From the IMG/VR virus record IMGVR_UViG_3300023049_000005, positions 1 through 64,000 of that record: 64,000 nucleotides of DNA. One strand, written 5' to 3'. Positions within the stretch are counted from its first letter, which is position 1, and every line of letters begins with the position of its first letter. Under the pieces are notes generated by a model. That model was given only the letters and a program-made list of their open reading frames with translations, had not been told where the DNA came from and ran no database searches. Positions 12,550-63,196 of the stretch are shown one piece after another. Source of the DNA: a virus. The position numbers and the translations under genes were made by a program.

Positions 12550-13533
12550 CTATTTCACTAGTTTGAATTTTTTGCCTTCCTTAGCAGCAACAGTATTATA
12601 AAATTCTAGTAGAGCTTTTACAATATGTTTTACTTTTTTACCATCAAGGAAATCTTTGCTTTCCAATTCGTTAATCACACTCTTTTTAGTAAGCATTTTT
12701 TCGAAAATTCTACGCTCATAATTTTCATATGAATAGAGGTTAACAACGGCTCTTTGGAAATATCTATTTCTAACTGTTTTTCCTGAGAGTTTTTTAGGTA
12801 AATCCATAAGCATCCAATCTAGAAAATCAATTACTTCCTTTTCAGATCTAACAAATCTTAGATCCCCGTTGTTAAAAGGTTTGTGTATAGTAGCTGCACT
12901 AAACGCCTTATGACCCGTGATGAGCATTCTGAGTTCATTGTGCTGAATACTCTTGTACTGTATAAGCTTTTTGTTATTATACCTGTCGTATATCTTTTTA
13001 TACTTAGTATAAGTATTACCTTTCTTAGTACCACTTTTCTCTTGTTGAACAAAGTGTTTTAAGTAGCCGTTCACATCCCAAGGTTTACCTTGTTGTATCG
13101 CAGCTAGATCAGCTTCTGTTACATTTTTACTAATGAAGAAATAAACAGGAAGTTCTAAGGCTGCTCTTGCTGCAAGTCTATGTTGTCCGTCCATCACACG
13201 CAAATCAGAATCCATCATAAAGGGAATATCTAAGTCTTTCCCATTATCGGAAATTTCTTTCTTCCACCATTCGATTTGTTTTCGATTCTTGTCACGGTTT
13301 GATTCGACTATACTAAACGAATCATAACTCTTTGTCTTGAAAATGATATTCTCAATTCCTACATCCATTCCCTTAGCTTTCATTTTAGCTAAAGTCTCTA
13401 GATATCCTGATTCTTCCATCTTAGTCAAGAACTGCGCAATAAGTTCATTCTTATACATTTCTACTGCAAGTGATTGGTTTCTACTCGTAGCCTTTTTTGC
13501 TACTTTTTTCTTTGGGGTTGCTATACTAGCCAT
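12550..13533 (-). CDS. ParB/DGQHR-motif protein, paralogue A (327 aa)
   Basis: A basic, low-complexity N-terminus (TPKKKVAKKATSRN) precedes a ParB-N-like domain containing ESNRDKNRKQIEWW, IPFMMDSDLRVMDGQHRLAA and ELPVYFFISKNV. D-G-Q-H-R is the signature of ParB/Srx-type and DndB-like proteins, which use nucleotides or act on DNA. The C-terminal half, with HNELRMLITGHKAFSAATI and RNRYFQRAVVNLYSY, is shared with the neighbouring paralogue. The two genes are 21 nt apart and co-oriented, so they arose by tandem duplication. The biochemical role is unknown. Confidence 0.75.
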   Translation of the reverse strand: MASIATPKKKVAKKATSRNQSLAVEMYKNELIAQFLTKMEESGYLETLAKMKAKGMDVGIENIIFKTKSYDSFSIVESNRDKNRKQIEWWKKEISDNGKDLDIPFMMDSDLRVMDGQHRLAARAALELPVYFFISKNVTEADLAAIQQGKPWDVNGYLKHFVQQEKSGTKKGNTYTKYKKIYDRYNNKKLIQYKSIQHNELRMLITGHKAFSAATIHKPFNNGDLRFVRSEKEVIDFLDWMLMDLPKKLSGKTVRNRYFQRAVVNLYSYENYERRIFEKMLTKKSVINELESKDFLDGKKVKHIVKALLEFYNTVAAKEGKKFKLVK

Positions 13534-13554
13534 AATATACTTATTTAGGTTAAA

Positions 13555-14442
13555 TTATTTATTTTTACTAAGGATGTATTTCTTTCCTTTCTTTTTCGCT
13601 ACTTCGTTATAGAAGTCCAATACTTTTGTTACTTTATCTTCTGCTTTTGCTTTCTTGATAAAATCAAATTCTTCTAAACTATTTGCGTATTTCTTTATCG
13701 AAATCATTTTCTCGAAGATATCTTTATCAAAATTATCATATGAGTATAAATTAACGACTGCTCTTTGGAAGTATCTATCCCTTACTAAATCACCTTTTAA
13801 TTTAGTTGGTATAAAATAGAACATCCACTCCAAAAACTGATTCACTTCCTCGTATGATCTGACGAATTTCATATCACCTCTCTCAAACGGAGCTTTGATA
13901 CTCTTGCTACTAAATGCAGCATGTCCCATCACAATCATTCTAAGTTCGTTGTGGTTGATCCACCTCTTTGCCTTTTGATTAAACTTATCATAGATTACCT
14001 TATATTTTTTATATGCGGTATTTCCTTTTTTGGTGAAATACTTCAGGTAATCTTTAATTGTCCATTTGTTCCCTTTCTGTAGATCAGCAATATGCTCTTT
14101 TTTGATATTTCTGCTGATATAAAACAAAATAGGTAAACCTAATTTTTTTCTACCACCAAATCTATGTTGTCCCTCAAGTATATTCATGTTTTCGTCAACA
14201 ATAATTGGGATGTCTAAATCCTTTTTCTTTTCCCCTATTTCTACGACCCACCTTTCTACTGCTTTCGTATCGATATCTCTGTTTTCGGGAAGAAAACTAA
14301 AAGCATCATAATTGAAAGTCTGAAAATGAAAGTTATTAATTTTCATATCAGGTGTTTTACTGAGTACGTCAATTAAAAATTCGTCATTGATATTTATTGA
14401 AAATGACTTTTGTTCTTTTGTTGCTATTTTTTGTTTACACAT
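13555..14442 (-). CDS. ParB/DGQHR-motif protein, paralogue B (295 aa)
   Basis: This is clearly homologous to the gene that follows it, with the same blocks: PENRDIDTKAVERWV, VDENMNILEGQHRFGGRK, HNELRMIVMGHAAFSS and RDRYFQRAVVNLYSYDN. The signature here is EGQHR instead of DGQHR, so the first catalytic or nucleotide-binding acid is conservatively changed. It lacks the long basic N-terminal tail of its partner. A TATATTTG box 35 nt upstream of the ATG probably drives both genes. Confidence 0.75.
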   Translation of the reverse strand: MCKQKIATKEQKSFSININDEFLIDVLSKTPDMKINNFHFQTFNYDAFSFLPENRDIDTKAVERWVVEIGEKKKDLDIPIIVDENMNILEGQHRFGGRKKLGLPILFYISRNIKKEHIADLQKGNKWTIKDYLKYFTKKGNTAYKKYKVIYDKFNQKAKRWINHNELRMIVMGHAAFSSKSIKAPFERGDMKFVRSYEEVNQFLEWMFYFIPTKLKGDLVRDRYFQRAVVNLYSYDNFDKDIFEKMISIKKYANSLEEFDFIKKAKAEDKVTKVLDFYNEVAKKKGKKYILSKNK

Positions 14443-21339: not shown

Positions 21340-21636
21340 ATGATTACTAGTTTTAAAGTGTTTGAAGGATTAAATATTCAACCATTAGTTGATAAAGTTG
21401 TAAAATATGGTAATATGGAAGCATTTCAATATTTAAAAAATATGAAATTTGATCTGAGTGTTAATAATAATATAATCATTGAAGTGGCTTCATCAAATAT
21501 ATATAATGAAATAGTTAAGGATATATATCATGCCATAGAAGAAGCCGCTAAATTTGGATTAGATATAGATCCGATAGATGATAATATTATATTCGATGAA
21601 AAGGAAAATAGATATAAAATAATAGATTACCTTTAA
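21340..21636 (+). CDS. Leader-bearing small protein, possibly degenerate ankyrin-like (98 aa)
   Basis: MITSFKVFEGLNIQPL is a leader variant that shares MIT-F with the 402-aa protein at 33.7 kb. The next segment, VDKVVKYGNMEAFQYLKNMK followed by an FDLS/NNNIIIE pattern, has the spacing of one worn ankyrin repeat (G-N-x-E-A-x-x-x-L, then D, then a new helix). That reading is tentative. The protein ends acidic (DENENRYKIIDYL-like tail). Confidence 0.62.
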   Translation: MITSFKVFEGLNIQPLVDKVVKYGNMEAFQYLKNMKFDLSVNNNIIIEVASSNIYNEIVKDIYHAIEEAAKFGLDIDPIDDNIIFDEKENRYKIIDYL

Positions 21637-23012: not shown

Positions 23013-23020
23013 TATATTTG
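23013..23020 (+). promoter_or_regulatory. TAnnTTTG promoter (TATATTTG) of the MoxR-VWA-TelA run
   Basis: An exact -7 box, 35 nt upstream of the ATG at 23056. No comparable box appears before the following five genes, which supports a single operon. Confidence 0.6.
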
Positions 23021-23055
23021 TAGTCTAAAATGTAATAAAAATTAAACTTATCATT

Positions 23056-24411
23056 ATGGATAACAAACAAAACGTCAAAAAGGTAACACCTGTTTACCAA
23101 ACAGCAAAATTTAACAGGGATATTAAAACATTAACTAAGAGAGAGTTTAAGTACTTTGCTCTTATGAGGTCACAATACGGAGTTCCTTTTATTAAGGCAA
23201 AACCAGGTGTGGCTAAATCGGCTATTGTAAGAACTATTGCCGAAAAGCTCGATATGCAATATATCGATCTTCGTCTTTCTATGGCAGATGAAACTGATAT
23301 GCAGTTTCCTAATCTTACTTTCAGTGAAAAGCATGGTGTACATGTAATTGAGAGTGCGATTCCTGAGTGGGCTGCATTATCAAATGAAAGACCAACTATC
23401 ATTCACTTTGAAGAATTAAACCGTGCGAGGTTGGAAGTTAGAAATGCCGCACTTCAAATTCTTCTTGAAAGAACTATTGGACACAAGTTCAAGTTCAATG
23501 AAAATGTATTTATGATATCAAGTGGTAACTTAGGTGACGAAGATGACACCGATGTTGAAGAATTTGATACTGCTTTAAATAACCGTTTGATTCACGTTAA
23601 GCACACACTTACTGTTGATGAATGGTTAGCATGGGCGAGAGATTTCGGACACATTCACCCTGATATTATTCAGTTCATCGAACTTGATGGAACTAAGCTT
23701 GTAACCAAGCCTGCGGATAATGAAGGTTCTAGTGGGGGCGCACATGCTACACCAAGATCTTGGGAGATGTTAAGTAAGTTTATTGTTGCCAACTTCGGTG
23801 GTGGAAGTAAATTAGATGAAGAAGGGAATATCATCTGTGATGAAGAAGGTAATCCTATTCGTTTCTATGATGGTTGGAAAACTGACAAGAAAGGTAATCC
23901 TATTTTCAACAAAGTTGTAGATGGATCAGAAGAAATGGAAACCGTATCTTCTAGTGATGCTAGAATTAATGGTATCAGAAACTACGGAGATACCACAGAA
24001 TACTTACCTGTGGTAAGTGAATTCGGTTCGGGTTTCATCGGTGCAAGTGCTTGGAATAGATTTGCTAGATTCTTGAAAGACCGTATCAACCTTAATCTTA
24101 GAGATATTCTTGAAGATTTTAAGAAAAGAGAAGCAGATCTTGCTAATTTCAAGAGAGATAAATACTCTGAACTTATTTCGGAAGCTAAGGGTGCTGATAT
24201 CTCTAAGTGGAGTTCTAAGAACGTTGATAACTTCTCATTATTCTTGATGAAGTGTAGTGCTGACGAAAGAACAGGTTTCCTACTTCACGTAGTGGATAAA
24301 GCAAACAACAACTTCGGTAAAGCTGTTGCTGACAGTTCAGTGAAATCACTTCTTAGAAAGTTCCCTAATGAATTGAAGAAAATTAAATCACTTAATCAGA
24401 ACAACAGATAA
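23056..24411 (+). CDS. MoxR-type AAA+ ATPase (451 aa)
   Basis: This is an AAA+ ATPase with a MoxR-like layout: Walker A IKAKPGVAKSA (residues 46-56), Walker B PTIIHFEELNRA (113-124), sensor 1 MISSGNLGDE, and a conserved NNRLIHV after it. MoxR ATPases remodel or mature partner complexes and are usually paired with a VWA-domain protein, which is exactly what follows 34 nt downstream. The long C-terminal half (KGNPIFNKVVDG, RDILEDFKKREADL) is probably the lid plus a partner-binding region. The pair is a known chaperone-type arrangement, but its substrate in this phage is not known. Confidence 0.88.
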   Translation: MDNKQNVKKVTPVYQTAKFNRDIKTLTKREFKYFALMRSQYGVPFIKAKPGVAKSAIVRTIAEKLDMQYIDLRLSMADETDMQFPNLTFSEKHGVHVIESAIPEWAALSNERPTIIHFEELNRARLEVRNAALQILLERTIGHKFKFNENVFMISSGNLGDEDDTDVEEFDTALNNRLIHVKHTLTVDEWLAWARDFGHIHPDIIQFIELDGTKLVTKPADNEGSSGGAHATPRSWEMLSKFIVANFGGGSKLDEEGNIICDEEGNPIRFYDGWKTDKKGNPIFNKVVDGSEEMETVSSSDARINGIRNYGDTTEYLPVVSEFGSGFIGASAWNRFARFLKDRINLNLRDILEDFKKREADLANFKRDKYSELISEAKGADISKWSSKNVDNFSLFLMKCSADERTGFLLHVVDKANNNFGKAVADSSVKSLLRKFPNELKKIKSLNQNNR

Positions 24412-24445
24412 TAGTATTTAAATAATAAAAATAAACAGATAGATT

Positions 24446-25858
24446 ATGAGCGATGTAGTAGATATGGGGTCTAACCACCCTACCTTAGTAGAAGCTGTGG
24501 AAAGAATGTTAATTGACGTAAAGTTTGAATTACCTTTCTATGGAGAGTTTAACCTAAACATTAATTTCAGAGATTCCACTAAGAAAATGCGTACTTGTGC
24601 GACCAATGTTAAATCCACGGGTATGTATTTCTACTACAACGCTAATTTTCTATCTAGTTTAAATACTATTGATGGAGAAATCAGTGGAGTTGGGGAAGAA
24701 GAAATTAAATTCAATGAGTGGGAAAGACAGAAGCAAGTAAACTTTTTACTTCTTCATAATAATTACCACTTACTTTTCAATCACCCACAAAGGATGATTG
24801 CGGGTAACTTTAAGCCTAGTTTCTCTAATATTGCCCAAGATATGATTATCAACTCAACTTTATGGGCTGATATCACACAAGAGTTTATTTCAGTTCCTAA
24901 GTATCCTATTAATGATGAAAACCGTAGTAAGGATATTGATAATAAACATATGGCACTCTTTATCCCTAGAAAGTTCGCAGAACAAGGTGGTGAGCCTATC
25001 TTCGAAGAACTATATAGTTGGTTGAGAGAAGAGCATATGCTTTGGGATAATAACAGAAAACAAAATCCTGATCAACCTAATACTGATCCTATGTATGGTG
25101 ATTATGGTGTATATGGCGAAAATAATAACTCAGTTAATATGTTCTCTTTAGATTACATTTTCAATCAACTTGATGAAAACGAAGGATCTTTTATGGACGA
25201 GCATATGGATGACACCGTACCTGAGGAAGTAAGAGAAAACTTTGTAAACGATGTAATCGAAGGTTTAAGAGGTAGAGGTCTTGTTAAAGGTGATATCGAA
25301 ACTACTTTAGATAAACTAAGAAAGAAAAGAAAGGATTATTTAAGGGAAATTAAAAGATGTATTTCTAATGATATTCTTGGTAATATCAAACAAAGAAGTC
25401 TTGCTAAACCTAACCGTAGAGGTATTAAGGGGTTGAAAGGTAATAGAAAAATTAAAGCTGAGATTAATGTTATCTTAGATACATCAGGATCTATGGGAGG
25501 TCTTTTTGAAAAAGTGCTTTCTTTTGTATTTCAAAGAGATATTACTATTAATATGTTACAAGTAGATACCGAGGTACATGGTGTTAAGAAAATCACATCT
25601 CTGAGAGAGATGCAACAAATTGACATCAAAGGTCTTGGTGGTACTATGTTACAACCAGGTATTGATATGTTGACAGAGAAAGGATCTGAGTACCAAAATT
25701 ATAATACAGTTATCTTAACTGATGGATATTGTGATACTTTAGATTTATCTAAAGTTAATGGTAGAGTACTTGGTATCACAACAGGATGTGCTATCCCAAT
25801 GTCTAAAAAACCAAAGAATGGTTTTTATAAAGAAATTTTCGTAGACGAATCATTATAA
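24446..25858 (+). CDS. Metallopeptidase-like plus VWA domain protein (470 aa)
   Basis: Two domains are visible. The N-terminal one resembles the putative metallopeptidase of DUF2201-type proteins, with HNNYHLLFNHPQR at residues 104-116. The usual HExxH is changed to HNNYH, losing the catalytic glutamate, so zinc chemistry is doubtful. The C-terminal VWA domain has an intact MIDAS: INVILDTSGSMGG near 346, a GLGGTML threonine, and VILTDGYCD. It should bind Mg-dependent ligands and act as substrate adaptor for the MoxR ATPase encoded directly upstream. Confidence 0.85.
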   Translation: MSDVVDMGSNHPTLVEAVERMLIDVKFELPFYGEFNLNINFRDSTKKMRTCATNVKSTGMYFYYNANFLSSLNTIDGEISGVGEEEIKFNEWERQKQVNFLLLHNNYHLLFNHPQRMIAGNFKPSFSNIAQDMIINSTLWADITQEFISVPKYPINDENRSKDIDNKHMALFIPRKFAEQGGEPIFEELYSWLREEHMLWDNNRKQNPDQPNTDPMYGDYGVYGENNNSVNMFSLDYIFNQLDENEGSFMDEHMDDTVPEEVRENFVNDVIEGLRGRGLVKGDIETTLDKLRKKRKDYLREIKRCISNDILGNIKQRSLAKPNRRGIKGLKGNRKIKAEINVILDTSGSMGGLFEKVLSFVFQRDITINMLQVDTEVHGVKKITSLREMQQIDIKGLGGTMLQPGIDMLTEKGSEYQNYNTVILTDGYCDTLDLSKVNGRVLGITTGCAIPMSKKPKNGFYKEIFVDESL

Positions 25859-25861
25859 AAA

Positions 25862-26230
25862 ATGAAACTAGTAAACACAAAACTAAGAGTTGTATATATC
25901 CCACAAGTTCCTATGAAGGGATTTAAAGTGGTAGTCAATAATGAGCGTGAGGCATATATTGTTTATAATGCTCTTATTAACCAACACAACTTTCTACTTG
26001 ATGAGAAAGTAATTCCTGATCACTTAAATGTTATTTTTGTAGAAATGGTTGATGAAAGTGGAGAATGGGTTGAGTACTACAATGAAGAAGAAATGGTTGA
26101 ATGGGAAGAATTTTGTGAAGAATATGATGCCTATATAAAAGGGGATTATATCATTGGACAAAATGATGATATAGATCATCTATCCGATGGTAATTATATC
26201 GGTGGATTAACAATGCCTAAAAAAGATTAA
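25862..26230 (+). CDS. Small conserved phage-type protein (122 aa)
   Basis: The pattern VYIPQVPMKGFKVVVNNERE followed by GEWVEYYNEEEMVEWEEF recalls a family of small acidic proteins seen in large phages. They share PQVPxKxFxVxV at the start and a tryptophan-rich acidic end. I know no function for them. It starts 3 nt after the VWA gene stop, inside the operon. Confidence 0.62.
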   Translation: MKLVNTKLRVVYIPQVPMKGFKVVVNNEREAYIVYNALINQHNFLLDEKVIPDHLNVIFVEMVDESGEWVEYYNEEEMVEWEEFCEEYDAYIKGDYIIGQNDDIDHLSDGNYIGGLTMPKKD

Positions 26231-26269
26231 ACAACAATAAACAACTTGAACGATTAAATATTGGAAAAT

Positions 26270-27319
26270 ATGGAAAATAAAAAACTTTCTCAGGAAATTG
26301 AATTGTCTAAAGCAGACAAAAAGGTAGCTTTAGAAACAGCTAAAAAAATTGATACAAGTGATCCGAATTCTATCTTAGAATATGGTAATGATGTACAAAA
26401 GAAATTAGGTGATTTCTCTACTGATATTTTAAAGAATATAAAGAAGAATGATAATAATGAGATCAATGATCTTATTAACGACCTTCTACATGATATACAA
26501 CATATCGAAAGTAGTACTAATCCTTCTATTATGGATAGAGTTGTTAGTGTACTTCCATATGGAAAGAAACTCCAAAAAGGTGCTAGAAAGATGATCGCTA
26601 AATATGAAGGTGTTGAGTCTAATATTGATAATATCGTTGTTAAAATCGATAAAAAGAGATTACACCTTTATCAAGATAACGAGCTTTTAAATCAATTATT
26701 TGCTCAAAATCTTGACAACCTTAAAGAACTTAAGGTTTATATCGAAGGTGCTGAGATCAGATTAAAAGAATTAAAAGAAGAAGTAGTAACTATCGATGGT
26801 AGTACTATTGAAAATCAATACTTGATTAACGATAAGAAAAACTTCATTAATCGATTAGAGAAAAAAATTACTGACCTTAAAACATCAGGGGCAGTAACTT
26901 TACAAACACTTCCTCAAATAAGAATTATTCAAGATAATAATTCAACTCTTATTGAGAAGATCCAAAGTTCTATCAATAGTACTATTCCTCTTTGGAAGAA
27001 TCAGTTTGTTATTGCGGTATCACTCCAAAGACAACAAAATGCTATTGAAATCAAAAATAAGATTGATGATACTACTAATGATATTCTAAAAAAGAACTCA
27101 TTAGCGTTGAAACAAAATGCTATCGAAACTGCTAAGGCTAATGAGAGAAGTACTATCGATATCTCAACTCTTAAATCAGTAAATGATAATCTTATTTCTA
27201 CATTACAGGAAATTAAGAAAATCAAGAAAGGTGGAGAACAAAAGAGAAAAGAAGTTGATAAAGAACTTCAGAATATCAAAGACACACTTAAAAAAGGACT
27301 ATTAGAAGATCAAGACTAA
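26270..27319 (+). CDS. telA: TelA-family (toxic anion resistance, PF05816-like) protein (349 aa)
   Basis: The domain order matches TelA: EYGNDVQKKLGDFSTDIL, then LPYGKKLQKGARKMIAKYEG, then a long helical part with YIEGAEIRLKELKEE. After it come the hallmark LPQIRIIQDNNSTLIEKIQS and TIPLWKNQFVIAVSLQRQ, then an AxETAKANERSTIDI stretch and a terminal coiled coil. TelA proteins are linked to tellurite, colicin and phage resistance and to cell-envelope stress, but no reaction is known. Its presence after a MoxR-VWA pair suggests one complex. I chose the ATG at 26270 over a TTG three codons earlier. Confidence 0.85.
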   Translation: MENKKLSQEIELSKADKKVALETAKKIDTSDPNSILEYGNDVQKKLGDFSTDILKNIKKNDNNEINDLINDLLHDIQHIESSTNPSIMDRVVSVLPYGKKLQKGARKMIAKYEGVESNIDNIVVKIDKKRLHLYQDNELLNQLFAQNLDNLKELKVYIEGAEIRLKELKEEVVTIDGSTIENQYLINDKKNFINRLEKKITDLKTSGAVTLQTLPQIRIIQDNNSTLIEKIQSSINSTIPLWKNQFVIAVSLQRQQNAIEIKNKIDDTTNDILKKNSLALKQNAIETAKANERSTIDISTLKSVNDNLISTLQEIKKIKKGGEQKRKEVDKELQNIKDTLKKGLLEDQD

Positions 27320-27320
27320 T

Positions 27321-28664
27321 ATGTTTTCCCAAGCCGAATGTGTCCAAGTACTTAAAGGTAAATTAGATCCTAAAGACTTTCCTTCTTTAGATAAGATGAG
27401 ATTGTACAAATTAGAACATGTACTTAGAGAGCTTATTGGGGGACAACTTAGTGATAGTATTAAGAAACAATATGTAGTAAATTTTCTACATATTGTTAAT
27501 CTTAATTTAGAGAAGATCAATTACTTTGATATCAACCTTTTCAAATATCTTAAATTCAATATCTTAGATACCTCATTATTTTATGATAAACTAATATTTA
27601 ATCAGAGTCTTATTTCTAAGATATTCAATCTAAAAAAGAAGATTTTAATCAGAGAAGGTAAATGGGAAGAATGGAGTAAGTATAGAAAATATTTTACTTC
27701 AAATAATGATAATTGGATCAAAGAATCTTCTGATAGAATTGATCATCTAAAGTCTATTAATAAGAAATTCAAAGATAGTAGATTAGAGCAGATCGTTAGT
27801 ATATCCGAAAATATACATAGTTATATTAAAGATAATAAAAAAGTTAAACTAACTAAATTAGAGCAATTCCATATTTACTATTCTGATAATCTTATTCAAC
27901 TACTAGATGATTATGTTTATCAAATAGAAAAAGAGGCAGAATCTATTATCTCTTATAATAAGAAGTATAATCAAGAAATTGATGTTTATAAACAGAACTA
28001 TGTAGATAAACTTACTGATATCAAGAAGTATTTTTCTAATCTATCTTATATATCCGAAAATAAAATTGATCATACTATAAGTAGATATAATAGAGTATTA
28101 AGTGAATCACAGATGTATAATAATTATATCAAAAAGGGTGATAGTATTAAATTAAATCTTTATAAAAAAGAACAAAAAAGTATCTGTTTCTATGATACTA
28201 ATAATATAGCCTCTTGTGATAAAATTTATAACACTAGTACTTTCGTAAGAAAATATACGTTTATAACAAAAGGTAAATATGGTGTAGATATGAAACTATT
28301 ATCTATTTTACACAATATATCATTTAATCTTATTGATGAATTTAATTCAGATAGTAATGTTACATATTTTGAAACTAATGATGACACAGGTGTTTCACAT
28401 TGTCTGTGTATTAGATATGAGAATGATATTACATTATTATATTTAGTAGATAGAAGATTTATACATTCAGATAAAACAGGAAATAGATATAAAAAAATTG
28501 AAGTCAAAATCAATTATAATCTTAATGATGAATTAAATGAATTATTAGATCAATATAAAACTAAAATAGAATCGTATATTGATGATAATGTTAAACCAAA
28601 GGCTGATGAAATACTAAAAAGTAAACTTATCTCAGCTATGAAAGATGAAGTAACCGATATATGA
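27321..28664 (+). CDS. Unknown protein of the MoxR-VWA-TelA operon (447 aa)
   Basis: The family is not recognised. The protein begins with a helical region (MFSQAECVQVLKGKLDPKDF), has a long helical middle with coiled-coil character (YQIEKEAESIISYNKKYNQE), and ends in a beta-rich domain with VTYFETNDDTGVSHCLCIRY and NDITLLYLVDRRF. It begins 1 nt after the telA stop and overlaps the next gene by 4 nt, so it is tightly bound to the operon and may be a further component or a client. Confidence 0.68.
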   Translation: MFSQAECVQVLKGKLDPKDFPSLDKMRLYKLEHVLRELIGGQLSDSIKKQYVVNFLHIVNLNLEKINYFDINLFKYLKFNILDTSLFYDKLIFNQSLISKIFNLKKKILIREGKWEEWSKYRKYFTSNNDNWIKESSDRIDHLKSINKKFKDSRLEQIVSISENIHSYIKDNKKVKLTKLEQFHIYYSDNLIQLLDDYVYQIEKEAESIISYNKKYNQEIDVYKQNYVDKLTDIKKYFSNLSYISENKIDHTISRYNRVLSESQMYNNYIKKGDSIKLNLYKKEQKSICFYDTNNIASCDKIYNTSTFVRKYTFITKGKYGVDMKLLSILHNISFNLIDEFNSDSNVTYFETNDDTGVSHCLCIRYENDITLLYLVDRRFIHSDKTGNRYKKIEVKINYNLNDELNELLDQYKTKIESYIDDNVKPKADEILKSKLISAMKDEVTDI

Positions 28665-29131
28665 ATATTAAAGATATAATAAAAGAAGAAGGCGATTCCT
28701 TCCATGGTATACATAAAAGTATACTCTATTATGGTATAAGACATGATCATTTAGGAATGTGGTGCGGTTATATAGTAATCAAACCTAATCATCCATTTTA
28801 TAAAACCACAGAAAAACAATCAGGATATTTCCATGTACATGGTGGTGTTACTTTTGTTAAATATGTAAATGAGAGTTATCAGAAAATTTTAATAGACAAA
28901 AATATTGATAATATCTTAATAAAAGATTACGTAATAGGATTTGATTGTGGTCATAGTGGTGATTTAGTTCCGAGCATGTTTGAGTTATATGATGGTATCA
29001 CAAGAAATGATGTTTATAGGGATAAAAAATACGTCATTGAAGAATGTAAAAATATGATAAATCAATTAGATAAAAAATATCCTAAATTTTTCGGTGAATA
29101 TAAGGAAATGTTTAAAAAACTAAATTCCTAA
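28661..29131 (+). CDS. Conserved phage-type protein with GFDCGHxGD motif (156 aa)
   Basis: The conserved blocks are GYFHVHGGVTFVKY, VIGFDCGHSGDLVPSM and YRDKKYVIEECKNMINQL. I recall this pattern (H-G-G-(V/L)-T, then W/x-x-G-F-D-C-x-H-x-G-D, then Y-V-x-x-E-C-x-x-L) from a widespread small protein family of phages and mobile elements without known function. The invariant His and Asp residues look catalytic or metal-binding. It is last in the operon and overlaps the convergent uvsW gene by 12 nt. Confidence 0.68.
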   Translation: MNIKDIIKEEGDSFHGIHKSILYYGIRHDHLGMWCGYIVIKPNHPFYKTTEKQSGYFHVHGGVTFVKYVNESYQKILIDKNIDNILIKDYVIGFDCGHSGDLVPSMFELYDGITRNDVYRDKKYVIEECKNMINQLDKKYPKFFGEYKEMFKKLNS

Positions 29132-30703
29132 TAGACGCTTAGTTATTTTATAAGGATATTCGTGTTTATTATACATCTTTTCTCTTTCTACTCCATGTTT
29201 CTTTAATATATTATTACTATCCTCAGTAAACATATCAACTAAATCATAAATAGAAGCAACATCCTTAGTATCATGAAGTCTTAAACTTCTACCGATACTC
29301 TGAATAGTCCTTTGTTCTACTTTGAAACCTTCAGCGAATATTATATTATGGATATTCTTTATACTAACCCCTGTACTTAATGTACCATATGTAGCTAAAA
29401 GTATTCTTAATTTACCATCCTCTTTTTCTAGTTCCTTTTTAATCTCTTCTCTTTTATCTTTCTTTACGCCACCGTTAATCATATAGATTACTAAGTTATC
29501 ATTATGATAATGTTCTTCTAAATATTCCTTTAATTTATCACCGAATTCAATTATGTTATATAATACTAACGTGTTCTTATTAATATTATTTAATAGTTTT
29601 ACAATGAAATCTTTTCTTGGTTCACTATTTCTAATATACTCCCCTTCTAATCTGTATATTTCAGATCCTGATCCACCGTTCTTTCTAGCACCTTTTAAAT
29701 TATCATAAAACTCAGGATCATCATGATTTAATAATATTTGTGATATCCTTACATATGATATAATACCTTTATCTTGTAACTCCTTGGCTTTGATCTTCGC
29801 CACCTTCGGTCCTGTCAGACTTTGAATAGTAATATAATCAGCAAAACCATCGTCTTGGAAAGTACCCGATACACCAAATTGATATGAACTATTCTTAATC
29901 GTTCTACCCATAATATCAATAAAACTTTTACTCTTAGCAAGGTGAGCTTCATCACAAGCTATACAATCAAACTGAGTGTAAAATTCTTCACCTGTTTTAT
30001 CGGGTTTTGATAAACTCTGAAAAGTAGATATAAATATATTAGGTTCTTTCTCCCCTCTCCATTTTCTAGGTTTACTACTCATTATTTCATTCACTCTAAG
30101 ATCTAACTTTCTACTATTCTCACCATTGAATCCTTCATTATAGTCTACGATATCATCATAAAATTGCGTTACAAGGTCAATAGAAGGCACTATAAGCAAC
30201 ATCTTTAAGTCGTTGTCCTCTTGTAATAGATAGAAGAATACAATCGATATAATCAAAGATTTACCACCACCTGTGGCAACTTCTGCAGTGCAATACATAT
30301 TTCTTAATATATGATAGGCTGTTTCGATCTGATGATCATATGGATAGAAATCTACTTCCTTACCATCTTTCATAACTTTATGATCTTTGAAAAAAGTTTC
30401 ACAAAATTTCTGAACCTTCTCTAAAGTAACATCTCTATTAAGTGGGAAATCTTTTTTATTACTAACTTCCATTTTACTCTGAACTTTATTCATAGCAACA
30501 ACAGTCTCTTTCCAAAGACCTAATGGAATTTTATCTGATTTGAAATGTTTTATTTCTCCATCCCATATACCTCGTTTAAAACTAGGCATAAATTGGAAAC
30601 CCTTCACTTTTCTATTCAGTGAGAGTTTTAATTGGTTGTATTCTAATGTAGTTGCTTTTTCTACTTTAAACCATTTATTTTCAGCATCATATGATAATAA
30701 CAT
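29120..30703 (-). CDS. uvsW: UvsW-like superfamily 2 DNA/RNA helicase (527 aa)
   Basis: UvsW unwinds branched DNA and R-loops in T4 and shifts replication from origin-dependent to recombination-dependent mode. The protein has the small N-terminal UvsW domain (KVKGFQFMPSFKRGIWDGEI), Walker A VATGGGKSLI, motif II ACDEAHLAKS, motif III GVSGTFQDDG, and motif VI QSIGRSLRLH. At 527 residues it is close to the T4 protein. It is monocistronic with convergent genes downstream. Close relatives such as Rad25-type helicases are less likely, because the N-terminal domain fits UvsW. Confidence 0.93.
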   Translation of the reverse strand: MLLSYDAENKWFKVEKATTLEYNQLKLSLNRKVKGFQFMPSFKRGIWDGEIKHFKSDKIPLGLWKETVVAMNKVQSKMEVSNKKDFPLNRDVTLEKVQKFCETFFKDHKVMKDGKEVDFYPYDHQIETAYHILRNMYCTAEVATGGGKSLIISIVFFYLLQEDNDLKMLLIVPSIDLVTQFYDDIVDYNEGFNGENSRKLDLRVNEIMSSKPRKWRGEKEPNIFISTFQSLSKPDKTGEEFYTQFDCIACDEAHLAKSKSFIDIMGRTIKNSSYQFGVSGTFQDDGFADYITIQSLTGPKVAKIKAKELQDKGIISYVRISQILLNHDDPEFYDNLKGARKNGGSGSEIYRLEGEYIRNSEPRKDFIVKLLNNINKNTLVLYNIIEFGDKLKEYLEEHYHNDNLVIYMINGGVKKDKREEIKKELEKEDGKLRILLATYGTLSTGVSIKNIHNIIFAEGFKVEQRTIQSIGRSLRLHDTKDVASIYDLVDMFTEDSNNILKKHGVEREKMYNKHEYPYKITKRLLGI

Positions 30704-31485: not shown

Positions 31486-31959
31486 TTACTTATTTAGTTT
31501 TAGTATTAAATCAGTAATAAGTAATTTACCATATTCGGCTATTTCTTCATCTGTTAGCTTATCCCTTACTCTTTTATCACGTAATAAAAGTATTACTATA
31601 TCATCATGACCTCTCTTTGCTGCCCATCGTATAGCCATATTATTTATTGTACTAGGATCAACTCTTGGATCTTTAAGTAATAGTTTAACAATTTCTAGAT
31701 GATTCGATTCTGCTGCTAATCGTATAGCATAGTTTTTTTCATCACTAGGATCAACTCTATCATCTTTTAATAACTCTCGGACTACTTCTATATGACCATT
31801 ACAAGATGCCCATACTATACCATTATTTCCATTATTACTAGGATCAACTCTTGGGTCTTTTAAAAACAATTTAACTAAATTTAGATCACCTATTTTACAA
31901 GCCTCAATAAATTCTTGTTGTTTATTATCTGATTCGAATAGTTTATAACTTTTAATTAT
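31486..31959 (-). CDS. Leader-bearing ankyrin-repeat protein with a non-standard start (about 157 aa)
   Basis: The frame reads (I)IKSYKLFESDNKQQEF and then four ankyrin-type repeats, each with a D-P-R/D-R-V-D-P-S loop (LFLKDPRVDPS, LLKDDRVDPSDE, LLKDPRVDPSTI, LLRDKRVRDKL). It ends in a conserved tail EYGKLLITDLILKLNK. The leader and tail are almost identical to those of the ankyrin protein at 44.7 kb, which starts on GTG. At the equivalent place here the codon is ATA (31957-31959), and no ATG, GTG or TTG is in frame before an upstream TAA. Either ATA is used or the gene has lost its start; the nearest conventional start (TTG) would delete the leader. Ankyrin repeats bind other proteins. Confidence 0.68.
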   Translation of the reverse strand: MIKSYKLFESDNKQQEFIEACKIGDLNLVKLFLKDPRVDPSNNGNNGIVWASCNGHIEVVRELLKDDRVDPSDEKNYAIRLAAESNHLEIVKLLLKDPRVDPSTINNMAIRWAAKRGHDDIVILLLRDKRVRDKLTDEEIAEYGKLLITDLILKLNK

Positions 31960-34888: not shown

Positions 34889-36320
34889 CTATTGATTTAA
34901 CTTTGTTAACATATCACCCACATATGGTTTAGTTATTTTGAGAAGTTCCTTTTCTGTTAACTTTTCTCTCACTCTTTCGTCTCTCAATAATTGTAATATT
35001 AATTCTTTTTCGTCCTTAAAGTCTCTTAGTGTTCTATTTAAAACATAATTAGAATTAGCACTTGGATCAACTCTATCGTCTTTTAATAACACCTTCACTA
35101 AATCTATTTCACCTACAAAAATTGCATTTCCTATAATAATATTATCATTAACACTTGGATCAACTCTATCATCTTTTAATAATAATCTTACGATATTAAA
35201 ATAGCCTTTTTTAGATGCTTCTATTATGTTTATATTATCACCATCACTAGGATCAACTCTATCATCTTTCATCAATAGGCTTACTAATGCCATATCTCCC
35301 CTCTCCACTGCTGCCCTTATAGTCCAATTATTCACATCAGTTGGATCTACTTTAGGGTGTTTTAATAACATATGCACTATCGAAATTTCTCCATATAATG
35401 ATGCCATTCGTATAGCGTAGTTAGCCTCTATACTAGGATCAACTCTTTTATCATTTAGTAAAAGTTTAACTACTTTGATATGTCCGTTTTCTGCTGCACT
35501 TTTTATAGCTTTACCACCTTTAGCATTAGGATTAACTTCCTCAAATCCTAATAAATATTCTACTACTTCGGGGTTATTGTTATTCGCAGCTATTCTTATA
35601 GCTTGGTCTTCAAATGCTGTTGGGTCTAAATCATATTCTTCTATAAATAATTTAACTAAATTTAGATGACCCCAAGCTGCTGCTGATATTAAATTATTTT
35701 CAGTAGGAAGATTCCCTGTTTCGATTATTTTTTTAATCATTTCCATATCAACATTAGGCTTCTCTATTTCTAACATTAAAGCCATCTCATGTTTGAGGTC
35801 TTCAATGAAATTATCTTCATTTAATTTTTGGATCATACTACTAACAAGTGGTCTACCTTTAGCATATCTCTTAATTTCTTTTTTAGATAAATGTTTATAT
35901 ACCTCAGGTTGATTGAGTAGTAGATATACCACATCATCATGACCATTTTCATATGCGTATTCTATGGGAGTATTACTATCTAAATATCCACTTGCGTTAA
36001 ACCTGCCGTCTTTTAAAAGTAATTTAATAATTTCTAAATAACCTTCTTGTGCAGCCGTTTCTATTAAATCGTGTTCTCTTCTTTTATCTACCCCTTTATA
36101 TCTTAATAGAAACTTCAGAAGTTCAGGTTGATTCATACGAACTGCATAATATATAGGTGAATTTTTATTAGTAGTTGGTTTAATTTTTTCTTTACGAATC
36201 ATTTTTTTTAACATGTTCGATATCCCCCTCCATTGAAGCATATACTATTTGTTCCTTAGGGTCTAAAATATACCCCCCGTTTTTAGTAGTATATCCTTCA
36301 TATAATTTAATATATTTCAT
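34889..36320 (-). pseudogene. Leader-bearing ankyrin-repeat protein with apparent frameshift (about 477 aa if joined)
   Basis: From the ATG at 36320 the frame reads MKYIKLYEGYTTKNGG... then SMEGDIEHVKK, which is a leader plus the start of an ankyrin helix. It meets a stop shortly after a run of eight A residues (mRNA GTTAAAAAAAATG). One base over, the long frame continues as MIRKEKIKPTTNKNSPIYYA through about ten ankyrin repeats, many ending DDRVDPS, to VGDMLTKLNQ. Removing one A joins them into a continuous repeat, so this is a +1 frameshift at a homopolymer. It may be a read error, a true mutation, or transcriptional slippage. A start on the internal ATG near 36241 would lose the leader. 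Confidence 0.75.
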
Positions 36321-36586: not shown

Positions 36587-39500
36587 ATGTGGGATTATTC
36601 CTCAATAGAAGACAATTTTAAAAAGAGAACAGGAAAGCTTGATAAAAAGACATTTAACTTTCTTAGACAAGAAATAGATTCAGTTCGCTTTTATTCTAAG
36701 TGTTTAGATGGAAGTAGCTATGTTTATTCTGATGACTTAAATAATATTTATGACCTTCAGTTTAGAGACTATAATACTTATAAAATAAGCAGCGAATATT
36801 CTACATATTATAACGGTGGTGATGCTGATGGTATTGCTATTGATAGACAAGGAAACAGTGATCTTGGATTTTATAACAGATATAAAAACGATTATGGTTA
36901 TACAGTTAAAAACTTATTTAGTCCTAAGCGTTTATTTAATTATACAAATTATTATAACGTAGACCTTGCTACTACTCAACCAATAGACTTCGATCTAGTT
37001 GATGATAAACTTACTATTGATGGAGAAATTGTGATAATCGGACAAAGAATACTAGTAAAAGATAATATATCTACTGTAACATTAGACAGTAGTATTGATG
37101 CTGAAACATTTTTAAACACTGACGTAACAGTTGTTCAAACTATTGGTGGACAAATAACTTATCAATATTCTAATAACGAGAATGGTGTTTATAGATACGA
37201 TGGTTTACAACTTATAAGAGAAAACGATTTAGATACAGTAGATAATGTCAGAAATTATTCTGTGTATGTAAAATTAGGAAGCAGTAATATAACAAAAAGT
37301 TTCCATTTAAATAGATTAACAAACGGGGCATTTCCTTTAATAACCAATAATGAAAATATATCATTTACAGAAAAAAATGATTATGTGATCAGAAATTCTG
37401 TTGATTATAGAAACGTACTTGATAATAATTTTGCTACATCGTTGGCTCAACTTGAAACAGTATTTAGTTTCAGGGGTAATACATATGATATACCAAATAG
37501 AAATATTACAGTTGGTGATTTTGGCTTGATATTAAATTACCAAAATAACTATATGAATATTGTTAAAAACAGATTCAAAGAAGATCTCAAAGATATCATA
37601 GAATTAAATAATAAGTATCTAATCGTTGGTAACAACGGCACTCTTTTATCTATGGATAAAGTTTACTTTGATCTAAGTATTATCGAAATTGATTCTATTG
37701 AGGATCTACTTTCAATTGATATTAGAAACGGTAAAGGAATTATAGTAGGATCGAACGGTAGTATATTAACATCTATTAATAATAATAATTGGAATGAATT
37801 AGATAACCCAATAGAAAATAACATTAATGCAGTACAATATTTTAATTTAGCTAAGGCTAATTATATAGGAAATAATGGGGTTTTTGGTGAGGTTAATGTA
37901 AGCGGAGATCAGTTTAAAATAACAGAAAAAGAATTAACTATTCGTCCTAATTTATTCGACGAAAGGATAATAAGAGATGATTTACATAACATAAATAACG
38001 TAGAAATAGAGAACCAATTTTTCAAATACACAGGTGCAGATTGGGTAGACATACCTAAAGATATAAACAGTAGCTTTAGTTTTGATTTTAGTTTCAAACC
38101 AACAGACTTAGAAGCTAATGATACACAAGTATTATTCTCTATTACACCTACACCTTCGGCTACACAAAGCGCAGTTAATATTAAAGGGTTTAAAGTGTTT
38201 ATTGAAAAAGAAAATAATGATTATAGACTTAGATTATCGATTACTGATCCAAATGGAAATGAAGTTAAATTAGATGGTGATATATCTCTTTCTAATGATA
38301 AATGGTATAAAGTATTCATAACTCGTTTCAAAAACGAATATGAATTTTTTGTGAATAATAGATTAGGCGCAGAAACAGCATTGGGCTTTGATAGTAACTT
38401 TGATAACTTCAATGATACTATCAGATTAGGTGCGGAATTAACATATGATTTTAATAATTCACAATATTTAACTGCAAGTTATAATAACTTTATTGGTACA
38501 ATTGATAATGTGAGATTATGGGATAAGCGTTTAGATAACCAAGAAGTATTTAGTTATGGTAATTACTATTCAGATGATTTACCAAATCTAGTTACTTGGT
38601 ATAAATTTAAAGTAACTAAGAACGCTAGTGGTGATAAAATAATATTAACAAATGATGTAGTAGATAATAGATCTCTTTCGTTACCAAGTAATTCTAATAT
38701 AACTTTTTATAATGCAAATACTTCGGCTACTGCGATGTTAGAAATTGAATTATTTAAGGGAACGTCCATCATAGGAGATAATATAATTGTATTTGATTTA
38801 GAAGATCAATCTAATTATTCAGATATAACAACTAATACACAGTTTTATATTACATTTGATAATGAAAGCCCTAAGAACTTACGATATTATAGTACAGATG
38901 GTTATTATTATGGGGTATCTGATCAGAGAAGTTTTAGAATAGATTCATTTAAATTAGACTTCAACTTACTGAATTATATCAATGATATAGAAGTAGAATT
39001 AGAACCTATTTCAAATAAAGGATATGACAATTTAAGTATAAACTTTAACCTTCAAGAATTATTATTAATCGGAAGTGTAGAAAATAATGAGATTGATAAA
39101 ATCGATCTCAATAATGTGTGTGTTATACAACCTGTTGATAGATTAGAAGGTTGTACTATATCTTCTACTGTTTCGATAATAGACACTACAAATAGTATTG
39201 ATATTGAAAATGATTATAAAGATAATGTAACAGACGAAGTTAATGTTTGTAGCATTAACTATATTAAAGCATTAGGTTTCCCTTCGTCAACACAATCAGT
39301 ATGTACGTTCTATGTACCTAATGGTGATGGACAACCATTTGATCTTTATCAAGAAGTGTATTTAGTGGGAGAAGTAGAAGATCAATTAAATGGATATTTT
39401 GAGGTTAGTTTTAACGGAGTAGACTTTGAAGAAATAAGAGGTAATGGTGAATTTATCGTACCATTAGGAGTAGGGGCAGATTCATCTCTAACATTTAGAA

Positions 39501-42500
39501 CACGATTAGCAGAAGGTGCTGATGGTAATAAAGTAAAAGGATTAATTAAGAATTTAAAAGTATATGATAATTGTGTTAGAGATTTGTTCCCTGAACAGTA
39601 TACAGGTAATGCAGTAGAAGTTAAGAAATTATACTTTTCTCAGTTTGATAAAACGACTGAGGTTGATAAGATAACAGCTAGTAACTATTTATATTCATAT
39701 ATAGATCTTAAGAGCTTACAGATAAATAATATTGAAGAAATAAATTTAGCTACATATCAATCAGAGGGGTTTCCTGTGAGATTATTTGAATCACAAGTAG
39801 TTAATAATGCACTTGTGAACTGTCAAAATACAGGATTATGTTCAAGATCTACTTTCTTAACTAATAATACTATAGACAGAATTCAATACGGACTTGGATT
39901 ATCGCTTAGTTTAACAGGTGATGATTATGTATATAATAATACATCATATAATTTATTAGAACCACTTACATTAACTAATGTTCAATTATTTGGAATCGAT
40001 GATCATGAAGTGGGTGGATTAAATAGTCCATACCACATAGGTTTTGATATTTCTAAAAATTTCTATTTTGAAGTGGATTCAGTAATAATAACAGAAGAAG
40101 ATCTATTAAATAGTGATATCACAAATGGTGCATATATTACCCAATCTGTTGAAATGTCAGCGACATCATCATTAGGTTCAGGATTAGCAGCAGATGTGTT
40201 TAATCAAATAGTGTTCACAGGTAGTTTAGCCACATATAGTGTACTTACTGATGTAACATTAAATGAGAATTCTAAATATTTATTGGAATTGGAAATAGAC
40301 GGTGATCTTGATTTCACATTCGGTACAAACTCATATTCAGTAACGGGATCTAATACATTTGTTAGTCAGATAGTAGAGGTAAACCAAGATAGTGATTTTA
40401 TTGTAATGAAAGCAAACTCTAACACTACTATTACTAACTTAGTTGTATCAGATCGAGTTCCAACTAAGTCATTCATTAAATGGGATACAGAAACATGTGA
40501 TCTAACATATAAATTAAGTGGTGTTAGTGTAGAAGAAGGATTCATTCAAAGTGATGGTGAAAGATTTTTACCACAGTGTGTGTTACAACAAGATTGTGAT
40601 ATAACAGTGGAGAGTATAGTGAATACTCAATATTGGGAAGACTATGATCCGAAATTACTTTTCTTAAACTATGATGTAGCCAATAAATTATATTTCTTTG
40701 ATTTAGAAACAGGAGAATACCAACTTCCACAAAACGCTCAGTTATTCGATGTAAGAGAATTAACAATAGAAAGCCTTAGTGGGGAAAAGTCTTGGTTAGA
40801 TTACGTAAGAGATACGACAAAAGAATTTTTATATGCTGCTGTGAAATCAACAGGCAATACAGTCCCTTGGTCAAATTCATTTATATTATGTGGTAATATT
40901 ACTTCATATACTTTAACATTAAATACTAATACTACAAACGATCTTTCGGAGATCAACGGTGTAGCATCAGGATTATTACCTAACTATGCAACGGGTAGTA
41001 CAATATCAATTGGTGTGCCACCTGTTTCAAAGGATGTTTATTTATATAAAAATGCTATGGTAATAAAAATACCAACAACGTTTGATATAGAAATAGGAGA
41101 TGTTATTAAGTTTACGAACAGTTTAATAGATATAAATTTAATTACAATCGATCTTTTAGATGATGGTGGGAATACATACGCATATTTCAAAACAGGATTC
41201 GATGATTACTTAATTAGTAGATTAGTAAGTTGGACAAAGACAACTACTATAACTAACTTAAACAGATTTAAAGACATAGATGAACTATTATTAAATTTTA
41301 ATCTCCATCCAATTAGTATAGGATATACTTTATCAGAAATAAATGGCGGTGTTGAACTATCACCTAAGTATAATTACCAAACAGCATACTATAATTTACA
41401 GTGTAATATCTCTGTTAGAAACAATGATTTAATTGTTACGGATACTCAAATGAGATATAGAGATAAAGTGACATTATTTGATTATTCTCCTAATTATAGC
41501 ATATTATCATATTTAACTAAAGATAGTCGATTTGATGCAAGTTTTAAATTAAGATCGTTGCCTGAATATAATTTCCCTAATAATAACAGTGGAGTATTAT
41601 ATACACTTTCAACAGGTGAGATATCATTCAATTCTAGCTTAAAAGCAGAGTGGGAATCTATTCCAATATACACTTTCATAGATCTAGTATATGATACTGC
41701 TTCAATAAGAAGTGTATTAATAATGAGTAAAAATTATGATGAAGTAACAGAAAGATATATTATTAAGACATATGATTATTATGATGATGTAATTCAACAA
41801 TCTGATTTAACAGGAGCTAATTTTAATTTAAGAGTAAGAAATACACTTGGTGAAATATCAGAAGATCTTAAAAAACTTGATAATATCCAAAGGGTTGAAT
41901 CTGATGAATATGATATTACGAATTTAAATGCTACTATTTTCAGTAGTTATAAAAACTTAAAATCAGATCTTAACTTCAAACCATATACAGATAGTTATGC
42001 GAAGGCATTCTTATCACAAAAAGAAATAAAAGAATATTTAAGTGGTATAGTTTATACCGACTTTAATAATAACTTAGCGATGAATATCATAAATCTAACT
42101 AAGGATGATTATTTCCCAATCACAGGTATTAGTAAGTATTATATAGATTGTGAAGATTGTGTTCACGATAATTTTATATCATTTGATGGATTTAATCAGT
42201 TCTCTTATTTTGGAGCAGCTACAAGTTCAACGAATCGTGTACCATTCGAAACATATGGGTTTAATAATCAAATTCAAGTTTTTGGGGCAACAGGTGCTAC
42301 ATTTGTAGATATACCATTAAACTATGCAACACAAAGTGGTACGTCATCAAGAATGATAGAATTCGATATACAAGAATTAGAAAACGCAACAATAGAATTA
42401 AGAAAAGGTGGAACAAGTTTAACAACAATTAGCCGTGTCCCAAATGAAATAACTAAAGTTCAATTTATATCAGATGATACAAGTGATCTATTATTTAGAA

Positions 42501-48266: not shown

Positions 48267-50156
48267 TTATTCATCATCTTTCACTTCCTCAAAATCTACA
48301 TCATTGACTTCTTGTTCAGTGTTATCTGTTGAACCTTCCTCTGTATTAGATTCTTGTTCTTGTTGATATAACTTAGTAGAAATAGTAGACCAAGACTGTT
48401 GAAGATCTTCCATCAATGAATCAATAGAATCTAGATCTTTATTCTCATGTGCTTCTTTTAAAGCTTTAGACTTTTCTTCTAACTCAGTTCGATCAGAATC
48501 TTCTAACTTATCTTCGCTTTCTTTGATGAATTTCTCAGTTGAAAAAATTAACTGATCCGCAGAGTTTAGTTTATCAACTTCCTCTTTCTTTTTCTTATCA
48601 GCTTCTGCGTTTTCTTCCGCATCTTTCTTCATTTTCTCGATTTCTTCGTCTGACAGTTGACCGCCATTTTCGATTCTAATATCGTTTTCTTTACCCGTAG
48701 CTTTATCAACAGCTTTAACTGTTAATACACCATTAGCATCGATATTAAAACTAACTTCGATTTGTGGTACTCCTCTTGGAGATGGTGGAATTCCATCTAA
48801 GTGAAACGTACCTAGTGTCTTATTGTCGGTAAAGAACTCACGTTCTCCTACACCAACATTAATCTGAACACTTGGTTGATTATCACTAGCCGTACTATAC
48901 ACTTCCTTCTTTTCAGCAGGGATAGTAGTATTGGCTTCGATCATCTTAGTGAATACACCACCCATTGTTTCAATACCCATACTCATTGGAGTAACATCCA
49001 ATAGAAGAATATCTTCTACTTCATTGTTTAATACACCACCTTGTATAGCAGCACCTAGAGATACGACCTCATCAGGGTTAACACTCTTATTGGGTGCTTT
49101 ACCAAAGAATTTTTCAACAGCTTCTTGTACAGCAGGAATTCTAGTAGATCCACCCACTAAGATTATCTCATCGATATCACTATTCTTAATACCTGCGTTT
49201 TTCATTGCGTTCTTACACGGCTTCAAAGTTCTAGCAATAAATGAATCGATCAATTTATTGAACTCACTTCTAGAAAGAGTTTTCACGTAATGTTTAGGAT
49301 TGTTATCTACTACCGTAATATAAGGCAAGTTAATTTCAGTTGAAGTAGTAGATGATAATTCTATCTTAGCTTTTTCAGCAGCTTCTTTCAATCTCTGTAA
49401 TGCCATAGAATCTTCTTTTAGATCCATACCATTTTCTTCTTTGAACCCATCATTTAACCAATCGATTAATATTTCATCTACATTATCACCACCTAAATGA
49501 ACATCACCATCAGTAGACTTAACCTCAAATACACCATCACCTAGATCTAAGATAGAGATATCAAATGTACCACCACCTAAATCATATACTGCGATAGTTT
49601 TATCTTCTTCGGTTTTATCTAAACCATATGCTAATGCTGCAGCAGTAGGCTCATTGATAATTCTTTTTACCTCAAGACCTGCAATTTTACCTGCCTCAAT
49701 AGTAGCGTTTCTTTCTTGGTCATTAAAGAAAGCAGGAACTGTAATCACACATTCCTTAACATCTTGTCCTAGATAAGACTCAGCAGATTTCTTTAACTTT
49801 TGTAATATCATTGAAGATATTTCTTGTGGTGTGTATTCTCTGTCTCCGATCTTTACCACAGGGATATTTGCTTTATTTTTCACTACTTTAAAAGAAACGT
49901 TTTTTATTTCGTTTTTTACTTCATTGTAGTTCTTCCCAATAAATCTTTTAATTGAGAATACTGTGCTTTCAGGATTGGTTACCATTTGTCTCTTAGCACT
50001 ATCTCCTACTTTTCTTTCACCATCTTCTCCAAATGCTACAATAGAAGGCGTAGTTCTTTTTCCTTCTTCGTTATTAATAACAGTAGCTTTACCGCTTTCG
50101 ATTACTGATACACAACTATTTGATGTACCTAAATCAATTCCTATAATTTTACCCAT
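48267..50156 (-). CDS. dnaK: DnaK (Hsp70) chaperone, full length (629 aa)
   Basis: DnaK folds client proteins through ATP-driven cycles with DnaJ and GrpE partners, which must come from the host because none are seen here. The ATPase domain begins [19 protein letters not shown] and includes the [16 protein letters not shown] and [16 protein letters not shown] signatures. The linker region [15 protein letters not shown] leads to the substrate domain ([20 protein letters not shown]), and the protein ends in an acidic tail EEVKDDE. Length and motif order are those of a standard bacterial DnaK, so the gene looks functional. Phage copies are uncommon. Confidence 0.96.
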
Positions 50157-62914: not shown

Positions 62915-63196
62915 TTAATCGGCATCTTCTATAGTAACAGAAAGACCCTGAGCTTGTAATTTTAATTTGATTTTCTTTAAATGGTCATCACTACCCTCAC
63001 ATACTCTAGTCTTTCCTTTATAGTGGACTTGTAACGTATGCTGCCATGCTGTTTCTTTATCCATCTTACAGATTTTGATAAGACAGCTATGTACGTGATC
63101 GAACGTATTGTAGTCATCGTTGTGTAGAATCACAACCTTTGGTCTACCCGTACTATCTTTAGTCTTTGACTTCTTTTTGGTAATTGTCTTTTCCAT
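62915..63196 (-). CDS. clpS: ClpS adaptor protein (93 aa)
   Basis: ClpS binds N-degron substrates and hands them to ClpA/ClpC-type ATPases. The signature is clear: KVVILHNDDYNTFDHVHSCL (the N-D-D-Y specificity pocket), ICKMDKETAWQHTLQVHYKG, and KTRVCEGSDDHLKKIKLKLQ. A basic N-terminal tail (MEKTITKKKSKTKDS) probably reaches the ATPase. With the phage ClpP it suggests that the phage redirects host proteolysis. It is followed by a coupled 50-aa gene and is divergent from the GNAT gene. Confidence 0.93.
   Translation of the reverse strand: MEKTITKKKSKTKDSTGRPKVVILHNDDYNTFDHVHSCLIKICKMDKETAWQHTLQVHYKGKTRVCEGSDDHLKKIKLKLQAQGLSVTIEDAD

Follow-up and report, generated by a model that had tools for sequence, protein, structure and literature searches.

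MoxR-VWA pairs have a published role as chaperones, exemplified by RavA-ViaA of E. coli and p618-p892 of ATV. Iyer et al. 2021 described the pair from jumbo phages, with virion assembly involving peptidolysis as its proposed task (PMC7824862), and in N4-like phages it is represented by gp24/gp25, which are core genes expressed as middle transcripts (PMC4193335). For TelA, nisin sensitivity of Listeria upon its loss is cited in PMC12791056. Here we describe a phage locus in which a MoxR-VWA pair is directly followed by a TelA gene. The parts of this locus are known and their combination is new; also new here, in an otherwise known pair, is the loss of the catalytic glutamate from the peptidase domain of the VWA protein.

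Organization of the locus

The window analysed, 64 kb in length, is the first part of a 270,756-bp IMG/VR virus record from a large uncultured phage. Six tightly spaced genes had been reported at 23056–29131 by a first-pass annotation made from the sequence, and all six ORFs were recovered on the + strand at those positions. The features of the locus are as follows:

23013–23028, + strand: promoter-like box TATATTTGTAGTCTAA, an exact 16-mer match 43 nt upstream of gene 1
23056–24411, + strand: MoxR-type AAA+ ATPase, 451 aa (PHROG_1297, 4e-44)
24446–25858, + strand: DUF2201-type metallopeptidase domain (HNNYH) fused to a VWA domain, 470 aa (DUF2201_N, 2.6e-11)
25862–26230, + strand: P22 gp17-like protein, 122 aa (PF17420, 8.8e-9, 35.9 bits against a cut-off of 25; PHROG_1510)
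26261–27319, + strand: TelA family protein (PF05816, 6.3e-87), 352 aa from TTG 26261 or 349 aa from ATG 26270
27321–28664, + strand: 447-aa protein with a diverged XpaC-like core at about residues 145–201 (window 27753–27923; PF10112, 4.3e-4)
28661–29131, + strand: GFDCGH protein, 156 aa (PHROG_2164, 3.6e-23)

The intergenic gaps measure, in order, 34, 3, 30 or 39 (depending on the TelA start) and 1 nt, followed by a 4-nt overlap. The gene that comes next (29120–30703) lies on the opposite strand, and two more + strand genes, at 21340 and 21693, end 76 nt before the operon and might be part of the same unit. The surroundings are mostly devoted to DNA metabolism, with genes for topoisomerase II, a UvsW-like helicase, PhoH and two ParB-like proteins. 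All six operon products appear soluble.

Further along the window we observed a full-length DnaK/HSP70 (48267–50156, − strand; PF00012, 2.4e-247) and a ClpS adaptor gene (62915–63196, − strand); the phage thus carries proteostasis genes beyond MoxR-VWA. A 450-aa ankyrin-repeat protein is encoded at 34889–36241 (− strand), and the ORF at 31486–31869 looks likewise ankyrin-like, judged from sequence only. An ORF of 2688 aa (36587–44653, + strand) gave no PHROG match for its first 671 residues.

In the promoter box previously called ahead of the operon, the 8-mer TATATTTG, located at 23013, is no more frequent than chance predicts (12 occurrences against 11.6 expected) and was ruled out as promoter evidence by itself. 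The 16-mer TATATTTGTARTCTAA occurs exactly at two places only in the 270,756-bp record, 23013 and 14470 (− strand), and both copies lie 43 nt ahead of a gene start, at 23056 and at the ParB-like gene 13555–14442, although the pattern was derived from its own two sites and is therefore post hoc. The MoxR operon and the upstream member of a tandem ParB-like gene pair (12550–14442, − strand, both matching PHROG_12305) thus have this 16-nt candidate promoter in common. The TATATTTGTARTCTAA box resembles the TAnnTTTG box of Bacteroidota; host and timing of the putative promoter are inferred.

The MoxR ATPase and a VWA protein lacking the catalytic glutamate

The assignment of the first product as a MoxR-type AAA ATPase was borne out by its PHROG_1297 match, with the general AAA/MoxR models of Pfam giving weak matches. 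The P-loop and Walker B are present, the motifs KPGVAKS and FEELNR are conserved in the homologue alignment, and about 37 extra residues near positions 270–306 are specific to the window protein. Sequence searches of the PDB with the MoxR, VWA, TelA and gp17-like proteins returned nothing useful.

The second product matches both DUF2201_N, described as a "putative metallopeptidase", and DUF2201. An AlphaFold model of this protein (pLDDT 80) matches solved VWA domains, and the MIDAS is intact, with its residues conserved in the alignment, so the earlier description of a degenerate HNNYH metallopeptidase-like domain joined to an intact VWA MIDAS was accurate. The HNNYH motif at residues 104–108 is real: in a 75-row alignment, HExxH is kept in 70 of the 70 other rows covering the site, and HNNYH is found in the window only. 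The protein therefore lacks the active HExxH site of the jumbo-phage pair; H104, H108, H113, N128 and D132 are retained. The motif is encoded by CAT AAT AAT TAC CAC, and since the key AAT codon is two changes away from any Glu codon, a single sequencing error is an unlikely cause. Directly before HNNYH the protein carries 21 extra residues, with 10 more at 152–161, all specific to the window. No second, intact copy of the MoxR-VWA pair was found within the 270,756-bp record.

We presume from these residues that the window protein is a variant with a dead peptidase. It sits on a long end branch (1.59, against a median of 0.18), and the glutamate loss could therefore reflect drift or decay in a divergent lineage, not adaptation or function.

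In the databases, PHROG_1314 and RefSeq name this phage VWA/metallopeptidase family "HNH endonuclease" (for example at L008, 9441–10652), a label that looks wrong because the sequence has HExxH and a VWA domain. The VWA protein of the huge phage LR756504 is much longer, 719 aa (L003, 7944–10100), its peptidase domain being separated from the VWA domain by a large insertion.

TelA, its XpaC-like neighbour and the two small proteins

The fourth product had been proposed to be TelA, and a homology search settled the point: PF05816 covers residues 25–348 with 292 bits against a cut-off of 30. In a phylogenetic tree the window TelA groups with LR756504-type and Lak-type phage TelA (support 89/96, long branches), and a recent capture from a host is therefore not indicated.

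The 447-aa protein, whose gene starts 1 nt downstream of TelA, had been listed as unknown. A first search indeed yields no family match; what had been missed is the diverged XpaC-like core. We noticed the likeness by eye, the core KLEQFHIYYSDNLIQLLDDY resembling the XpaC core FLYTHLPNLVDLTNKY, and tested it afterwards. Alignment of the core with XpaC by hhalign gave P values of 7e-4 and 3.5e-4. With an XpaC profile, the protein scored above all 2000 shuffles and led the 41 window proteins about 65-fold; against 1632 control ORFs it came first once four true XpaC genes were set aside. It is also the one match of PF10112 over the whole record (4.3e-4), at 17.5 bits against a curated cut-off of 29.8 that it does not reach, and the likeness spans about 57 residues. 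The N-terminal membrane helices of XpaC are absent from it (maximum hydropathy 0.88, compared with 2.2–2.7 in four XpaC proteins). Because it falls below the cut-off and has no such helices, we call the protein XpaC-like and not a member of the family. Its AlphaFold model has a pLDDT of 43, and a search for relatives in phages and bacterial genomes found none.

Gene position agrees with this likeness. At 66 of the 75 bacterial TelA loci among the matches listed, XpaC is encoded on the same strand no more than 1.5 kb away, and in LR756504 the gene directly after TelA resembles the 447-aa protein (50% over 38 aa). Taken together, the comparisons suggest that the 447-aa protein is probably the partner of TelA.

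The small third product had been recorded without a family; its presence stands, and its score above the curated cut-off places it in PF17420 (P22 gp17), an identity overlooked at first. Any link of this gene to superinfection would come by family name only. The gp17-like and MoxR-VWA genes lie within about 1.5 kb of each other in the N4-like phage St11Ph5, whose VWA protein has HELWH; gp17-like as a standing partner of MoxR-VWA was rejected, as it is unmatched in every huge-phage locus. The last product, the PHROG_2164 protein, has relatives in phage G and in Staphylococcus jumbo phages.

Distribution of the pair and its linkage to TelA

Homologue scans worked through conserved peptide patterns, and the relatives recovered are metagenomic. 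Scanning IMG/VR with the VWA or the TelA sequence by itself gave no match, and alignments were needed; with these, at least 80 VWA loci and 54 MoxR loci were found. MoxR is present in the same stretch at 31 of the 68 distinct VWA loci among the matches listed, always on the same strand (31/31) and 0.3–8 kb away, with VWA first in 29. Among named phage records, VWA relatives occur in five (635–735 kb), two of them of equal length and match. The distance between MoxR and VWA in four huge-phage records is about 10, 24, 354 and 0.4 kb, and in all the pair is spread over dozens of huge phages.

TelA directly downstream of the pair was seen in the window and at none of the 68 distinct VWA loci, nor in any of the 31 loci having both MoxR and VWA (among the matches listed in each case). 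Only LR756504, of four huge-phage records tested, carries TelA; the gene shares the strand of MoxR and follows it at a distance of about 4.4 kb. Around 75 bacterial TelA loci, again among the matches listed, no phage-type MoxR or VWA homologues were found within about 6 kb. In the sets searched, direct joining of MoxR, VWA and TelA is thus confined to the window, and the full six-gene arrangement to one genome; since MoxR-VWA is widespread in huge phages without adjoining TelA, the set of six does not make up a conserved machine. By this sequence survey, the joining of the pair to TelA in one operon appears particular to this lineage.

Some bacterial loci show a same-strand run of an SBP-VWA lipoprotein, XpaC, an SBP-like membrane protein and TelA (L189, 2602–7032; L197, 2482–7014; L152, 5012–9702). 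These runs have a different VWA without MoxR, and a cellular MoxR-VWA-TelA operon was not found.

Proposed function and alternative explanations

The reading we favour, with confidence evenly balanced between acceptance and doubt, is that a non-proteolytic MoxR chaperone and VWA cochaperone would be expressed together with the gp17-like protein and an envelope module made of TelA and its XpaC-like neighbour. The operon would then comprise two functional halves under one promoter. In the first, a MoxR AAA+ ring would use ATP to remodel protein complexes of the phage or the host, assisted by the VWA protein as cochaperone, on whose MIDAS site clients may dock. Because the conserved histidines are kept and the catalytic glutamate is lost, the VWA protein is expected to hold metal or clients but not to cleave. 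In the second, TelA and its 447-aa XpaC-like partner would act on the inside of the host membrane, keeping the envelope stable while infection proceeds, and the gp17-like protein may be an additional host-interaction factor. The ancestral task of the MoxR-VWA pair would be independent of TelA. The nisin sensitivity of Listeria lacking TelA speaks for this reading; the short, sub-threshold XpaC likeness and missing membrane helices of the 447-aa protein, the long branch of the VWA protein, the apparent solubility of all six products and the occurrence of the full arrangement in a single genome speak against it. The chaperone role suggested in the first-pass annotation agrees, by analogy, with RavA-ViaA, ATV p618-p892 and the proposal of Iyer et al. 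2021.

The two halves could instead form one coupled machine, in which MoxR, together with the pseudo-peptidase VWA protein, would work on assemblies of the TelA/XpaC-like kind and build or remodel a sub-membrane structure that alters the host envelope, for example excluding other phages. The genes directly adjoin (gaps of 3–39 nt), both partners are altered in the very genome that places them beside TelA, and the MoxR-TelA proximity in LR756504 points the same way. However, the great majority of relatives carry the pair without TelA, LR756504 itself has an intact HELFH and its VWA gene about 354 kb from MoxR and TelA, and the 75 bacterial TelA genes have no phage-type MoxR or VWA nearby; with one genome to rest on, we consider such coupling doubtful. 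A fuller version, a new device for envelope stabilisation or superinfection exclusion in which MoxR and a pseudo-metallopeptidase VWA adaptor, with the gp17-like factor, would remodel the host membrane through the TelA/XpaC-like pair, we regard as unlikely. The pair might also mature tail or other virion parts, TelA and the rest being merely co-transcribed. A part in virion assembly is what Iyer et al. 2021 (PMC7824862) proposed; it has been shown for ATV p618/p892, and a second structural module adjoins gp24/25 in N4-like roseophages (PMC4193335). Yet the version of Iyer et al. needs peptidolysis, against which the lost glutamate argues here; the neighbouring genes serve DNA metabolism, and N4 gp24/25 are middle transcripts, which leaves this explanation quite improbable.

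A superinfection-exclusion or defence island borne by the phage, raised in the first-pass annotation together with a likeness to Ter-type systems, is the reading we find very improbable. In its favour, PF17420 is named for superinfection exclusion, and jumbo-phage TelA/Ter genes have been suggested to act against superinfecting phages; but a family name is not a mechanism, and names alone speak for it. PADLOC defence models gave no match above noise with the operon; a partial viperin match (0.005) of its last product was taken as chance. TelA is indeed a Ter component; TerB, TerC and TerD were absent from the 270-kb record, which may be incomplete, while controls were detected, and the Ter likeness holds for TelA alone. 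Moreover, MoxR-VWA is core and not accessory in N4-like phages, and is widespread in huge phages.

The glutamate-less pair suggests that proteolysis is not always a needed part of MoxR-VWA function. Its direct linkage to TelA and to an XpaC-like gene yields a concrete hypothesis on clients for two orphan systems.

Comparison with described systems

The MoxR-VWA half is not new, as it is widespread in huge phages, core in N4-like phages and already reported by Iyer et al. 2021. Their group 2.2 jumbo-phage pair (PMC7824862) likewise joins a MoxR AAA+ protein with an N-terminal metallopeptidase-VWA protein in large phages; the window differs in lacking the HExxH glutamate, in the insertions in both proteins, and in having MoxR first, a 34-nt gap and TelA next. 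N4 gp24/gp25 are the same two protein types, adjoining and with MoxR first, and are middle genes, whereas their HExxH is intact (HELWH, HEIMH), they are distant in sequence, and no TelA was seen among their neighbours. ATV p618/p892 and E. coli RavA/ViaA, likened here by description, provide the model of a MoxR ATPase chaperone with a VWA cofactor, but no DUF2201 peptidase domain or TelA is described there. Bacterial and jumbo-phage Ter systems share TelA as a recognised component and differ from the present record in their TerB, TerC and TerD. Finally, the TelA-XpaC pairs of Bacillota and others have the same TelA Pfam family and an XpaC-like core in the adjoining gene, whereas the XpaC-like gene of the window lies downstream, is longer, lacks membrane helices and scores below the family cut-off; if the XpaC-like reading is true, the TelA-XpaC pairing reaches huge phages.
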